NCBI RefSeq assembly: GCF_024494575.1
Contig: NZ_JANHDO010000001.1
Location: 248,001 to 312,000 of the forward strand
From: Halorubrum salinum
Lineage (GTDB): Archaea; Halobacteriota; Halobacteria; Halobacteriales; Haloferacaceae
Reading direction: 5' to 3'
DNA: 64,000 nucleotides
Part shown: piece by piece, positions 5,762-11,443 of the stretch
Numbering within the stretch: the first letter of the stretch is position 1
How the letters are laid out: the number at the start of each line of letters is the position of its first letter
Notes under the pieces: model-generated
Database searches by the model: none
Told to the model about the DNA's origin: nothing
What the model saw: only the letters and a program-made list of their open reading frames with translations
Program-made: the position numbers and the translations under genes

Positions 5762-6883
5762 ATGGGAACAACTGAATCGTCACTGGTCGACACGGTGCGG
5801 GCCAGACCGGGGCTCCTCCTCGTCGCGGTCCTCGGCGGCCTGCTCCTCGTCGACCTCCTCGCGAAGCTCGCGGGGGTGTCGGTCGGACCGATCGGGGGCG
5901 CGCTCTCCGTCGATCGGTTCCGGTCGAACCTCTGGAGCGGGCTCGTGATCGGGCTCGTGATCGGGCTCGCCGGAATCGGCCTCTCGTTGACGTACAGCAT
6001 CCTCTCGTTCGCGAACTTCTCGCACGGTGACCTCGTCTCCACCGGCGCGTTCACCGGCTGGGGCGTCGCCTTCCTGATCGCCGGCTTCGGCGACGTGCCG
6101 GTGCGAACGCTTCTCTCCGTCCGCGACGCCGGGAGCGCGTCGCCGGGCGACATCGGCGCGCACATCCTCACCACGCCGGGTGCGATACTCGTCGGCCTCG
6201 TCGCCGCGTTCGTCGTCACGGCCGCGGTCGCGCTGGCGCTCGACCGAGCGTTCTACAAACCCATGCGCGACCGCGACGGGATCTCGATTCTGATCGCCTC
6301 CATCGGCGCGGCGCTCATCGTCCGGTACCTGCTCCAGTTCGTTTACGGCTCCGACCGCCGGGGAATCACCGCGAGCGTGGACGCGTCGAACCTCGTCTTC
6401 GGGCCGCTCGGTATCTCGATCGACGCCCACGAACTCACGATCGTCGTGGCGGCGCTCGGGCTGATGCTCGCGATGCACTTCATGCTCCAGCGCACGAAGC
6501 TCGGCACCGCGATGCGCGCGATGGCCGACAACAAGGACCTCGCGCTCATCACCGGGATCCCCGCCGAGCGCGTCGTCACCGCGACGTGGATCATCGGTGG
6601 GGGACTCGCCGGTGCGTCTGGATACCTCTACGTACTGTTACGCGGGACGATCCAGTTCGACTTCGGGTGGCTCCTCCTCCTTCTCATCTTCGCCGCCGTG
6701 ATCCTCGGCGGGATCGGCTCGGTGTACGGCGCGATCGCGGGCGGGCTCGTCATCGGTGTCGTGTTCACCACCTCGACCATCTGGATCCCCTCCGACTTCA
6801 ACCAGGCCGCGGCGTTCGCCGTGATGATCCTCATGCTCCTGTTGCGTCCCGAGGGACTCTTCGGAGGTGTCTCGACCGCATGA
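5762..6883 (+). CDS. livH: Branched-chain amino acid ABC transporter permease (LivH type)
   Basis: This is a 373-residue multi-spanning membrane subunit of a branched-chain amino acid (or related amide) importer. The LivH family signature ILSFANFSHGDL is at about residues 80-91. Later come ALDRAFYKPMRDRDG, a long membrane segment LLLLLIFAAVILGGIGSVYGAIAGG, and a C-terminal LLLRPEGLFG. An extra N-terminal hydrophobic segment (about 18-45) precedes the usual first helix. The stop overlaps the next start as ATGA, so livH and livM are translationally coupled. Confidence 0.92.
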   Translation: MGTTESSLVDTVRARPGLLLVAVLGGLLLVDLLAKLAGVSVGPIGGALSVDRFRSNLWSGLVIGLVIGLAGIGLSLTYSILSFANFSHGDLVSTGAFTGWGVAFLIAGFGDVPVRTLLSVRDAGSASPGDIGAHILTTPGAILVGLVAAFVVTAAVALALDRAFYKPMRDRDGISILIASIGAALIVRYLLQFVYGSDRRGITASVDASNLVFGPLGISIDAHELTIVVAALGLMLAMHFMLQRTKLGTAMRAMADNKDLALITGIPAERVVTATWIIGGGLAGASGYLYVLLRGTIQFDFGWLLLLLIFAAVILGGIGSVYGAIAGGLVIGVVFTTSTIWIPSDFNQAAAFAVMILMLLLRPEGLFGGVSTA

Positions 6884-8199
6884 GCGACTCGGACTCACGA
6901 CCCGCTGCCGCCCCCGACAGCGCGCTCGGCGCGCTCACGGACGCCGCGCGCCGCAGCGACCTCGGATTAGTGCTCGGAACGCTCGCCGTCATCTACGCCG
7001 CCGCGACGCTTCTCACCGCCACGAGCGGGCTCAACAGCGTCGTCGGCCTGCTGGAGACGCTGACGTTCCTCGGACTGGTGTACGCGCTCTCCGCGCTCGC
7101 GTTGAACCTCCAGTGGGGCTACACCGGGCTGTTCAACATCGGCGTCGCGGGATTCATGGCCGTCGGCGTCTACACGATGGGGATGGTCGTCAGGTCCCCG
7201 GACCCCGCGTTCGGTCCGCCCGGACTCGGACTCCCGCTTCCCGTCGGCATCCTCGCCGGCACGGGGATGGCCGCGCTGATCGGCGCCGTCGCGGCGCTGC
7301 CGGCGCTGCGGCTCAAGGCCGACTACCTCGCCATCGTCACGCTCGGCCTCTCTGAGATCATCCGGCTCACGCTCCAGTCGAGCGCGTTCGACACTTTCCT
7401 GCGAGAGACGATCGGCGTCGGCACCGGCGGCGGTCGCGGGATGGGGATGCCGGACAACCCCGTTCGCGAGCTGTTCCTCGTCGACGGACAGGCGGGGACG
7501 CCGACCCCGTTCGGCGACCTCGTCTTCGGGATCTTCGGCGACGGGGGGCTCGGCATCGCCCACCCGATACTCATCGGCTGGGGGTACATCGGCGTCCTCG
7601 CCGTCGTCCTCGTCGGCTACTACCTCCTGCTCGAACGCCTCGGGCGTTCACCGTTCGGTCGGGTGCTCAAGGCCATCCGAGAAGACGAGGTCGTCGCCGA
7701 CTCGCTCGGGAAGAACGTGAACCTCGTGAAGATCAAGGTGTTCGTCATCGGCTGTGCGCTGATGGGGCTCGCCGGCATCCTCTGGTTCGGCAGCCAGGGC
7801 AACGTCTCGCCGACGCCGCAGTTCATGCCGCTTCTCACCTTCTACGTCTTCATCGCCGTCATCATCGGCGGCTCCGGCTCGAACGCCGGGTCCGTGATCG
7901 GCGGGCTCGTCTTCGCGGCGGCGCTGTTCGAGGGACCGCGTCGCGTCGGCGGCACGGTTCGCGGGCTGATCGACGCGCAGACGCCGCCGTCGTTCGCCGA
8001 CGCGCTCGTCTCGCTCGACCCGGTCACGCTGCTCGCGTACGCGACCGAAAACATCGCGCCGCTGCAGTTCGTCTTCTTGGGACTCGTGTTGGTGTTCATC
8101 ATCCACCGGCGGCCCGACGGCGTCCTCGGCGACCGGATCGAGACGGCCGCCGCAGTCGACCTCTCGGAGCGACCGAACGGAGGTGAGGCCGATGAGTAG
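6880..8199 (+). CDS. livM: Branched-chain amino acid ABC transporter permease (LivM type)
   Basis: This is the second permease, 439 residues. The family signature LNLQWGYTGLFNIGVAGFM is near residue 75-93, then LRLKADYLAIVTLGLSEIIR, the EAA-like cytoplasmic loop LKAIREDEVVADSLGKNV, and VIIGGSGSNAGSVIGG. The first ~25 residues are a polar Ser/Asp/Ala-rich extension. The ATG at 6880 overlaps the livH stop by 4 bp. The C-terminus HRRPDGVLGDRIE is typical, and the stop overlaps livG by 8 bp. Confidence 0.92.
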   Translation: MSDSDSRPAAAPDSALGALTDAARRSDLGLVLGTLAVIYAAATLLTATSGLNSVVGLLETLTFLGLVYALSALALNLQWGYTGLFNIGVAGFMAVGVYTMGMVVRSPDPAFGPPGLGLPLPVGILAGTGMAALIGAVAALPALRLKADYLAIVTLGLSEIIRLTLQSSAFDTFLRETIGVGTGGGRGMGMPDNPVRELFLVDGQAGTPTPFGDLVFGIFGDGGLGIAHPILIGWGYIGVLAVVLVGYYLLLERLGRSPFGRVLKAIREDEVVADSLGKNVNLVKIKVFVIGCALMGLAGILWFGSQGNVSPTPQFMPLLTFYVFIAVIIGGSGSNAGSVIGGLVFAAALFEGPRRVGGTVRGLIDAQTPPSFADALVSLDPVTLLAYATENIAPLQFVFLGLVLVFIIHRRPDGVLGDRIETAAAVDLSERPNGGEADE

Positions 8200-9118
8200 C
8201 GACTCCAACGGCCCAAGCGACGTGGCGGACGCGGACGTCGCGGAAGTCGCTGACGCTTCGGAGATTGCGGACGCCGCGTCCGGCGGGGAAACGGCAGACG
8301 CGGAGACGCAGGACAGCCCCGTCGAGGAGGCGGCGAAACACACGCCGACGGACGTTCCGCTGCGCGTCGAGGGACTCGTCAAGCAGTTCGGCGGCGTCAC
8401 CGCCGTCGACGGCGCGACCTTCGAGGTCGAACGCGGGAGTCTGACCGGGCTCATCGGTCCGAACGGGGCGGGCAAGTCGACGACGTTCAACTGCATCACG
8501 GGCGTCCACGAGCCGACCGCGGGAACGATCCACTTCGAGGGCGAGGAGATCACGGGGCTCGAACCGTACCAGATCGCCCGGAAAGGTCTCGTTCGAACGT
8601 TCCAGATCGCCCGCGAACTGGAGGAGATGACCGTCTTGGAGAACCTGATGCTCGCGCCGAAAGGGCAGGTCGGTGAGTCGGCGATACGCGCCGTCACGCC
8701 GGGGCTCCGCGGCGAGGTCGTCGAGCAAGAGGAAGCTCTCCGAGAGCGGGCGTGGGAGACGCTCGACTTCTTCGAGATCGACCACCTCGCGACCGAACAC
8801 GCCGGGAACCTCTCGGGAGGCCAGCGCAAGCTCCTGGAGATGGCCCGCGCGCTCATGACGGACCCGGAGATGGTGCTTCTCGACGAGCCGCTCGCGGGCG
8901 TCAACCCGACGCTCGAAGAGAAGCTCCTCGATCGGATCCACGACCTGCGGGCGGACGGCTACACCTTCCTCCTCGTCGAACACGACATGGACGTCATCAT
9001 GGAGAACTGCGAACGCGTCATCGTCATGCACCAGGGCAGCGTTCTCGCCGAGGGGACCGGCGACGAGATACGGAACGACGAGCGCGTCATCGAGGCGTAC
9101 CTGGGGGAAGACATATGA
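8192..9118 (+). CDS. livG: Branched-chain amino acid ABC transporter ATPase (LivG type)
   Basis: This is a cytoplasmic ATP-binding subunit of 308 residues. The Walker A motif GPNGAGKST is at 89-97, the signature LSGGQRKLLEMARALM is near 208-223, and Walker B MVLLDEPLAGVNP follows; the H-loop is in LLVEHDMD. The first ~55 residues are an acidic Ala/Asp/Glu-rich extension before VPLRVEGLVKQFGG, probably disordered. The start overlaps livM by 8 bp and the stop overlaps livF by 4 bp (ATGA). Confidence 0.93.
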   Translation: MSSDSNGPSDVADADVAEVADASEIADAASGGETADAETQDSPVEEAAKHTPTDVPLRVEGLVKQFGGVTAVDGATFEVERGSLTGLIGPNGAGKSTTFNCITGVHEPTAGTIHFEGEEITGLEPYQIARKGLVRTFQIARELEEMTVLENLMLAPKGQVGESAIRAVTPGLRGEVVEQEEALRERAWETLDFFEIDHLATEHAGNLSGGQRKLLEMARALMTDPEMVLLDEPLAGVNPTLEEKLLDRIHDLRADGYTFLLVEHDMDVIMENCERVIVMHQGSVLAEGTGDEIRNDERVIEAYLGEDI

Positions 9119-9963
9119 GCGACGACGAGACGGCGGCGACAGGTACGGACCCGACGGAACCGGACGACGCGGAGTCGGCGGAGCCGGACCCGACGGCGGC
9201 CCCGAGCGACGGGGAGCCGACGGCGACCTCCGCCGGCACCGCCCACACCGTCGACGACGACGCGATCCTCAGGCTCCGCGACGTGGACGCCGGCTACGGC
9301 GACCTCCAGATCCTCTCGGACGTCGACCTCGACGTGGCGAACGGCGAGTACGTCACGGTCGTCGGTCCGAACGGGGCCGGCAAGTCCACCGTGATGAAGA
9401 CGGTGTTCGGGCTCACGACCCACATGGGTGGTACCGTCGAGTTCCAGGGCGAACAGATACAGGGACTCCCGCCGGAGCAGATCATCCGCGAGGGGATCGG
9501 GTTCGTCCCCCAGACCGACAACGTCTTTCCCGGGTTGAGCGTGCGCGAGAACCTGGAGATGGGCGCGTACATCCTCGACAGCGTACCCGAAGACCAGATC
9601 GAGGCGATCTACGACCGGTTCCCGATCCTCCGAGAGCGGAGCGACCAGAAGGCGGGCACGCTCTCCGGCGGCCAGCGGCAGATGGTCGCGATGGGCCGGG
9701 CGCTCATGCTCGACCCCGATCTGCTGTTGCTCGACGAGCCCTCCGCCGGCTTGGCTCCCGACCTCGTCTCCGACATGTTCGACCGGATCGACCGGATCAA
9801 CGAGTCGGGGACGGCGATCCTGATGGTCGAGCAGAACGCCAAAGAAGCGCTGCGGCGCTGTGACCGCGGCTACGTCCTCGTCAACGGCGAGAACCGGTAC
9901 ACCGACGCCGGAGACGTCTTACTCGCCGACGACGACGTGCGACAGGACTTCCTCGGCGGGTAG
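9115..9963 (+). CDS. livF: Branched-chain amino acid ABC transporter ATPase (LivF type)
   Basis: This is the second ATPase, 282 residues, last gene of the transporter operon. Walker A GPNGAGKST is at 84-92, the signature LSGGQRQMVAMGRALM near 185-200, and Walker B LLLLDEPSAGLAP follows, with the H-loop replaced by LMVEQNAKEAL as is usual for LivF. The N-terminal ~48 residues are an acidic low-complexity extension like that of livG. The substrate-binding protein is not in this operon; it lies downstream in the opposite direction. Confidence 0.93.
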   Translation: MSDDETAATGTDPTEPDDAESAEPDPTAAPSDGEPTATSAGTAHTVDDDAILRLRDVDAGYGDLQILSDVDLDVANGEYVTVVGPNGAGKSTVMKTVFGLTTHMGGTVEFQGEQIQGLPPEQIIREGIGFVPQTDNVFPGLSVRENLEMGAYILDSVPEDQIEAIYDRFPILRERSDQKAGTLSGGQRQMVAMGRALMLDPDLLLLDEPSAGLAPDLVSDMFDRIDRINESGTAILMVEQNAKEALRRCDRGYVLVNGENRYTDAGDVLLADDDVRQDFLGG

Positions 9964-10045: not shown

Positions 10046-11419
10046 TCACTGGTTCAACACGTCCGACCACTGGCTGCTGTAGGTCGGCTGGTTGGGCTCG
10101 AAGGAGACGCGCTGGTCGACCGTCCCGTCGCGCTCTTGGAACGCGTTGACGTAGGCCTCTTCGAGCGACTGACCGTAGGCGTCGTTGAGGTACAGCGTGC
10201 CGGTCGAGGACGCGCCGACGTTGTCCCCCACTGCGAGGTCCGCCATCGCGGGCCCCTGCAGGAGGTCGGACGGCGCGGTCCGGAAGATGAACCCGTTGTC
10301 GTCGAGGTCGGTCACGTTCGGGTCGGTCGACGACGGCGAGATGCCGACGACGCCGTTGGGGATGAACACCTGATCGGCCACCTGGAGGTTGACGTTCGAG
10401 GACGCCGGGCCGACGACGGCACCGAACCCGTCGTTGACGAGCGCGTTCGCGCCCGAGATACCGGCCTGCGGGTCGGTCTGGGTGTCCTCGACGCGCGTCT
10501 CGACGGTGACGTTCAGGCCGGCGTCGTTGACCTGCGTGGCGGCCAGCAGCGCGCCGTCGCGGATCGGCCCGCCGAGCGGACCGAGGTCGCCCGTCTCCGG
10601 CATCAACACGCCGATCCGGGCCGTGAACTCGCCGTCGAGCCCGACGGGGTCTGCCGCCGTCGCGCCCCGGTCCTCTTCCGTGAGGTCGTTCCCGAACTCG
10701 ACGGTGTCGAGCGTCTCTAACTCGCCGTCTTGGAAGTCGATGATGTCGTAGGCGGCGGTCGCGACGTCGCCGTTGACGTCGAAGTCGACGCTCGACGACG
10801 CGCCGACGTAGTTGATCGAATCGCCCGCTGCGACCGCCTCGACGGCGTCCGGGAGGTCGGCGGGACCGAACTCCTCGCCGTCCGGGTTGGCGACGGTGCG
10901 GACCCGATCGCGGATCGCGGCCCCGTCGTTCTCGCCGGCCGCGGTGGCCGCGAGGATCTCGACGGCCATCGCGTCGTACGCCTGCGCGGTGAACACGCCG
11001 GGCTCCTGATCGTACTCGTCCTGGTACGACTGCGTGAAGAACTCGGCACCGGGCCCGCCCGCGGAGGGCGCGGTCCCGATCACGTTGTTCATGTCGTTGT
11101 CGACCTCGCCGGGGAGGTCGGCGTCGATCAGTCCGTCGGGGACGATGATGTCGAGGTCGGACGTGCCCTCGGCGAACTCGGAGTAGTAGTCGCGGAACAG
11201 CTGGATACCGGACTGCGGGAACCCGACGATCATCACGGCGTCCGGGACCTCGCCGGAGCCGCCGTCGCCGCCGTCTCCGGAGCCGCCGTCACCACCGTCT
11301 CCGTCACCGTCGCCGGAGTCGCCGCCGTCGCCGCTCTCGGTCGAACAGCCGGCGAGCGCAGCGATGCCCACCGCTCCGGCTCCGCTCAGAACGTCGCGTC
11401 GTCGCACGTGTCGCGTCAT
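10046..11419 (-). CDS. ABC transporter substrate-binding lipoprotein with circularly permuted lobes
   Basis: This is a 457-residue extracytoplasmic ligand-binding lipoprotein of the branched-chain amino acid type. Residues 1-25 carry a Tat signal (RRRDVL) and lipobox ALAGC with lipid-bearing Cys25. A Gly/Asp linker (26-57) follows. The domain order is unusual. In the normal family the segment RIGVLMPETGDLGPLGGPI directly follows the linker, and PDAVMIVGFPQSG comes later. Here PDAVMIVG and the rest of the usual C-terminal half occupy residues 59-245. The usual N-terminal half starts at about 268 and the protein ends at FEPNQPTYSSQWSDVLNQ, the sequence that normally precedes PDAVMIVG. It therefore looks circularly permuted. 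The start at 11419 is chosen because a TATA box lies 29 bp upstream; an in-frame ATG at 11437 is too close to it. It is convergent with livHMGF and is its likely partner. Confidence 0.9.
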   Translation of the reverse strand: MTRHVRRRDVLSGAGAVGIAALAGCSTESGDGGDSGDGDGDGGDGGSGDGGDGGSGEVPDAVMIVGFPQSGIQLFRDYYSEFAEGTSDLDIIVPDGLIDADLPGEVDNDMNNVIGTAPSAGGPGAEFFTQSYQDEYDQEPGVFTAQAYDAMAVEILAATAAGENDGAAIRDRVRTVANPDGEEFGPADLPDAVEAVAAGDSINYVGASSSVDFDVNGDVATAAYDIIDFQDGELETLDTVEFGNDLTEEDRGATAADPVGLDGEFTARIGVLMPETGDLGPLGGPIRDGALLAATQVNDAGLNVTVETRVEDTQTDPQAGISGANALVNDGFGAVVGPASSNVNLQVADQVFIPNGVVGISPSSTDPNVTDLDDNGFIFRTAPSDLLQGPAMADLAVGDNVGASSTGTLYLNDAYGQSLEEAYVNAFQERDGTVDQRVSFEPNQPTYSSQWSDVLNQ

Positions 11420-11443
11420 GCTGGTACGTCGTACCATACGGGC

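Follow-up and report, generated by a model that had tools for sequence, protein, structure and literature searches.

A circularly permuted branched-chain amino acid-type binding lipoprotein of Halorubrum salinum, and the likely repeated permutation of its family at one loop in haloarchaea

The 64,000-nucleotide stretch of Halorubrum salinum DNA analysed here, hereafter referred to as the window, encodes a branched-chain amino acid-type binding lipoprotein in which the two halves of the ligand-binding domain stand in swapped order. When the first canonical half is named A and the second B, the window protein has the order signal-B-linker-A, as opposed to the canonical order signal-A-B. In our preferred reading, to which we assign a probability of about three in four, the gene product is a functional, lipid-anchored binding protein of the neighbouring LivHMGF-type ABC importer, which probably takes up branched-chain or related amino acids; its domain would have been cut in a helix-strand loop of lobe 2, with the old ends bridged by a linker of ~23 residues, and this permutation would have arisen independently in an ancestor of clade gamma (Halorubrum, Halohasta and some relatives). 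The gene is a single open frame with possible starts at 11437 or 11419 and a stop codon at 10046-10048, and it specifies a protein of 457-463 amino acids. The relevant features of the window are the following.

5762-6883, plus strand: livH-type permease gene (PF02653; NCBIfam LivH/UrtB-type matches)
6880-8199, plus strand: livM-type permease gene (PF02653; NCBIfam LivM match)
8183-9118, plus strand: livG-type ATPase gene, start approximate (PF00005, PF12399; NCBIfam LivG match)
9115-9963, plus strand: livF-type ATPase gene (PF00005; NCBIfam LivF match)
10046-11437, minus strand: gene of the circularly permuted substrate-binding lipoprotein (open frame and swapped-order PF13458 match)
10049-10621, minus strand: module A, the canonical domain's first half, residues 267-457, ending SSQWSDVLNQ (profile search, Pfam positions 2-186)
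10622-10690, minus strand: joining linker from the old C-terminus to the old N-terminus, residues 244-266, of the gamma-clade type EED..ATAADPVG (linker comparison)
10691-11245, minus strand: module B, the canonical domain's second half, residues 59-243, beginning PDAVMIVG (profile search, Pfam positions 191-312)
11246-11344, minus strand: Gly/Asp-rich linker, residues 26-58 (direct reading)
11345-11419, minus strand: Tat signal (RRRDVL) and lipobox LAGC, residues 1-25 (direct reading and motif scan)

The swapped order was evident from two alignments. In a Pfam search the window protein matched PF13458 (Peripla_BP_6) with a score of 109.8 bits against a curated cut-off of 31.7, and the profile ran against its canonical order along the chain, positions 191-312 (residues 59-177) preceding positions 2-186 (residues 267-454). 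Likewise, the solved Thermotoga maritima binding protein 3td9 aligned as two swapped pieces, residues 211-396 of the mature window protein corresponding to chain positions 17-198 of 3td9, and residues 63-158 to positions 265-357. These alignments bear out the swap of halves proposed in the first-pass annotation. The sequences on which that proposal was built were all found, namely PDAVMIVGFPQSG at residue 59 directly after the Gly/Asp linker, EFGNDLTEEDRGATAADPVGLDGEFTARIG at the join of the old ends, and FEPNQPTYSSQWSDVLNQ at the C-terminus, followed by the stop. The end of the protein had also been said to be what normally precedes PDAVMIVG, and indeed the nearest canonical relative, L066 of Halorarius litoreus, has the predicted join, reading EPGQASYSSQWSEVLN-DNP-GVVAVIGFPESG across the window protein's cut site. 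Direct reading and a motif scan of all rows further confirmed, as had been claimed, that the twin-arginine signal (RRRDVL) and the N-terminal lipobox cysteine (LAGC) typical of haloarchaeal Tat lipoproteins were kept at the front. The analysis thus supports the interpretation that a type I periplasmic-binding-protein sequence has been circularly permuted in nature, its export signal still being in place. The solved relatives found by sequence were amino-acid binding proteins and receptor ectodomains, with MglB absent among them, and the other matches within the window's own genome were weak and lay chiefly in the signal and linker regions. Since the family profile still matches, permutations of this kind stay hidden in ordinary domain annotation.

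The permuted order is widespread among haloarchaea. By our own count from the match table, a permuted member, recognized as a full-length collinear match with E<=1e-95, was present in ~168 of the 391 sampled Halobacteria genomes; canonical genes instead gave two half matches of ~1e-45 to 1e-74. The family and class samples together placed the permuted order in seven family groups. Within the window's genus, nearly all of the 52 genomes contained a permuted member at an identity of either 75-89% (~30 genus mates) or ~53%, while a canonical form was the best match in three genomes (G041, G049 and G034) and only weak matches were obtained in G018. The loci that were read contained 115 permuted and 50 canonical frames, some of them duplicates, and both kinds of member co-occurred within three genomes (G015, G042 and G030). 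Full-length permuted matches were confined to the window's order: a phylum-wide sample of 295 genomes contained no permuted form outside the Halobacteria, the other matched groups showing separate half matches only, and the plasmid collection contained no permuted relatives, only canonical haloarchaeal ones that matched in two pieces each. The first-pass annotation had considered that the same order, already described, might turn up across many genera; the order did prove to be common, and no description of it was found in our literature search.

The livH, livM, livG and livF genes reported to lie beside the gene were confirmed at 5762-9963 on the plus strand, convergent with the permuted gene, which is thus encoded together with permease and ATPase genes of the LivHMGF type, as expected of a type I (cluster B) binding protein. 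The layout livH> livM> livG> livF> SBP< was common to nearly all permuted loci and most canonical relatives among the loci read, so that both orders sit in equivalent cassettes. Gain or loss of the lipid anchor was considered as a correlate of order and was not seen, most proteins having a lipobox whichever their order. In Halegenticoccus and Haladaptatus (L067 and L069) the canonical members have a Tat signal without a lipobox cysteine and, judged by this, may be released instead of anchored.

To establish how the permuted genes are related, trees were built after A and B had been restored to canonical order. The tree of A+B (79 rows) needed four changes of order, three of which were forced by well-supported branches. 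Permuted proteins formed a clade alpha of 32 rows from many families, a clade beta of 5 rows adjoining the canonical L067-L079, and a clade gamma, which comprises the window protein, Halorubrum, Halohasta, Natronomonas sp. LN261 and L152; one further permuted lineage, delta (Actinarchaeum group, L063), was unplaced. The sister of gamma was the canonical L066, and gamma was nested inside a canonical protein clade. In AU tests, the p-values of which are not those of a blind test because the groups to be tested were defined with the first tree already in view, both A+B (p=1.4e-4) and A alone (p=7.6e-6) rejected a single permuted clade; gamma+alpha (A+B p=0.0045; A alone 2e-4) and gamma+beta (p=0.0046) were likewise rejected, and alpha+beta was borderline on the binding-protein tree (p=0.054). 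A chimera with discordant halves was also considered and rejected: separate trees of A and of B required four changes each and set the same clades apart, each of alpha, beta and gamma forming a single clade. Half B was weak in the AU tests, since by itself it rejected neither one clade of all permuted members (p=0.065) nor gamma+alpha (0.080), and this is a real weakness.

The transporter genes provide independent evidence. In a tree of LivHMGF (55 rows, 1308 columns), gamma again grouped with the canonical L066 (SH-aLRT 99), and this pair was placed inside a canonical group of L130, L133, L131, L137 and L093 (support 100); beta and almost the whole of alpha fell in other parts of the tree. 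AU tests on LivHMGF rejected gamma+alpha (7.8e-6), gamma+beta (5e-10), alpha+beta (p=0.013) and alpha+delta (p=0.013) as well as one clade of all permuted members (p=3e-70); beta+delta was not rejected (0.46).

The cut fell at one site in all permuted proteins. The stop lay 1-5 residues beyond the end of module A (exactly 2 residues in both beta and gamma), and the lipoprotein linker was followed by module B. The cut corresponds to the loop of lobe 2 that leads from the helix SSQWSDVLNQ to the strand PDAVMIVG; in the secondary structure of the canonical AlphaFold2 model it lies between helix 187-194 and strand 200-204, and the permuted model opens with that strand and closes with that helix. 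The joining linkers, in contrast to the cut, were conserved within clades and dissimilar between them: L(S/T)EEDxNATAADPVGVDSFEAMVGVLM in gamma, (N)PDGxGPSADxSPGGxGREVxVGILL in alpha and PQPEPxGSGSGADRTVRLGVLQ in beta, that of delta resembling certain alpha linkers. The stretch before lobe 1 in gamma (SFEAMVGVLM) is close to its counterpart in the canonical L066 (SFEAKVGVLM). In all 50 of the 50 canonical frames, bacterial outgroups included, exactly 3 residues separated A from B, and the canonical frames thus carry no scar of a reversal.

On these grounds, at least three independent permutations at one and the same loop of haloarchaeal LivJ-type binding proteins appear likely, and most likely the permutation was gained three or four times. 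Parsimony on the binding-protein tree at equal costs gave four gains against one gain and six losses, and multiple gains are favoured, since the single-gain history requires six exact reversals. An unlikely alternative is one ancient permutation after which the canonical order was regained repeatedly, by re-permutation or by whole-gene exchange. Such a single event would account for the shared cut at no further cost, the widespread alpha clade is probably old, cassettes appear to have been swapped at a fixed chromosomal site within the genus, so that gene replacement would occur, and the two histories tie if a gain is made to cost three times a loss. However, every one of the losses would itself have to be an exact circular permutation, and the invariant 3-residue spacing in canonical frames is that of the bacterial outgroups. 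Canonical cassettes acquired from outside would not nest the permuted clades within canonical ones in the binding-protein and LivHMGF trees, nor does a single origin fit linkers that are kept within clades and yet differ between them.

The fixed site just referred to is the interval between lipA and a gamma-glutamyltranspeptidase gene (window ~4.5-13.2 kb), in which genus mates hold one of three liv cassettes: gamma-permuted (L098, L102), canonical (G041; L093) or alpha-permuted and inverted (L086-L090, L105). The flanking genes are 77-88% identical to those of the window, as against only 41-77% for the alpha and canonical cassettes, and this difference suggests that cassettes have been exchanged at this site within the genus. 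An insert of ~1.4 kb, coding for a 388-amino-acid transposase-like protein, interrupts the gamma-type gene of G017 (L098:6076-8874) beyond codon ~354.

A second alternative, which we hold to be less probable still, is that the permutation happened once and that gene conversion with canonical copies in the same genome then homogenised the halves and hid their common origin. The opportunity exists in the three genomes that carry members of both orders, and partial conversion could yield the observed pattern, in which half A speaks most strongly against one clade and half B does not do so significantly. However, the adjoining LivHMGF genes agree with the binding-protein tree, which would not follow from converting the binding protein alone, and the joining linkers, absent from canonical genes and therefore out of reach of conversion, differ among alpha, beta and gamma. 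Moreover, half B of gamma is also nearest a canonical protein (65% identity to G162). Permuted and canonical relatives share up to 70% identity per half.

As to the route, repeated gain would probably have proceeded through duplication, either in tandem or via a B-A-B intermediate, after which the redundant modules would have been lost; two or three further permutations at this loop would have occurred in haloarchaea independently of the gamma event. No A-B-A or B-A-B intermediates were found in the loci read, and apart from real tandem pairs the search for vestiges of a lost module beside permuted genes gave chance-level matches only. The alpha-type protein of L162 ends in ALSPPDN, to be compared with the canonical ALxxDPD; this very short stretch might be what is left of the start of a lost module B. 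Tandem alpha-type permuted genes adjoin livHMGF in L157 (G246) and L158 (G380), one copy of each pair being without the lipobox cysteine, and in L163 (G152) two alpha-type permuted copies lie ~11 kb apart, one of them entering a run of N.

AlphaFold2 gave one good model of five for the window protein, of only moderate confidence (pLDDT 71.7, pTM 0.77), and for the canonical L066 a model with pLDDT 84.5 and pTM 0.86. With Foldseek the L066 model aligned over its full length with the LivK structure 3td9 (386 columns, TM 0.79/0.86), and the permuted model aligned over only ~200 columns, to Leu-binding proteins; about one half is what a sequential alignment of a permuted protein is expected to cover. 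The motifs PDG in module B and GPASS and SPSST in module A, which are candidate ligand-site motifs of LivJ-type proteins, were strongly conserved across the permuted clades. From this conservation and the adjoining transporter genes we infer that the window protein is a working amino-acid binding protein. Its fold would still shut on the ligand like a Venus flytrap. In Rossmann-like lobes the starts of strands lie on the face away from the ligand, and for this reason the exit of the membrane tether would have shifted from the outer pole of lobe 1 to that of lobe 2.

Haloarchaea also have binding proteins without dedicated transport, and the permuted protein might accordingly have left transport and been kept for another task, for instance as a chemoreceptor ligand sensor like the haloarchaeal BasB. 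We regard this as quite improbable, since nearly all of the loci read, whichever order they carry, have livHMGF adjoining the gene, and chemotaxis genes were not noted next to the permuted one. An assembly or annotation artefact can be dismissed, as can chance, because the permuted order is kept across the ~30 genus mates, including the one-contig genomes G022, G042 and G045, and across the class-wide sample, and because the gene is under purifying selection (dN/dS versus relatives 0.20-0.32).

Compared with canonical LivJ/LivK-type proteins (type I, cluster B; PF13458; represented by 3td9 and L066), the window protein has the same two modules, the same livHMGF neighbourhood and the same candidate ligand-site motifs, and most canonical haloarchaeal members share the Tat/lipobox front of the permuted proteins. 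It differs from them in its order B-A instead of A-B, in the extra joining linker of ~20 residues, and in its new ends, which lie in the helix-strand loop of lobe 2. Natural circular permutations have mostly been inferred once per family and from distant relatives. Here, permuted and canonical relatives share a cassette type and, in one genus, even a chromosomal site, which makes the origins of a permutation directly testable, together with the questions of why a cut is allowed or favoured and whether the position of the tether matters for docking on the ABC transporter. If there were indeed at least three origins, this would point to selection for having the tether and chain ends at lobe 2, or to a DNA-level route that repeats the cut; its recurrence may reflect selection on where the tether sits or the existence of only one permissive loop.

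A literature search, in which few subscription papers were covered, yielded no report of permuted binding proteins in haloarchaea or of the LivJ type. The one precedent found for natural permutation of such binding proteins is TpMglB-2 (Tp0684) of Treponema pallidum and its relatives, for which the class Type Ic / Cluster Bc has been proposed; in this permuted type I protein the first three strands of the N-lobe have moved to the C-terminus and the order of the C-lobe is unaffected (PMC4990184). Both proteins are natural circular permutations of the type I domain with an N-terminal lipid tether and adjoining ABC transporter genes. However, TpMglB-2 belongs to the sugar-binding MglB family and is cut in the N-lobe, whereas the window protein has no MglB among the solved relatives found by sequence, is cut in lobe 2, and has moved all of the start of lobe 1 together with the first part of lobe 2. 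With respect to Type Ic / Cluster Bc, the window protein therefore has the permuted type I order by sequence, with the fold only modelled, but neither the cut after the third N-lobe strand nor the MglB homology. Duplication is the route usually proposed for circular permutation, as in DNA methyltransferases, saposin/swaposin and transhydrogenases, and for the transhydrogenases independently acquired arrangements have been inferred (PMC3320104). In contrast to these cases, the haloarchaeal cut would have been reached repeatedly within one family of equivalent cassettes, with clade-specific linkers. The circularly permuted GTPase cpRAS, for which a single origin is favoured (PMC2430557), resembles the haloarchaeal proteins in being a permuted variant of a common fold with a scattered distribution, whereas for the latter the trees and linkers favour several origins despite the same cut. 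It is this repeated origin at one site that would set the haloarchaeal proteins apart from the known examples.
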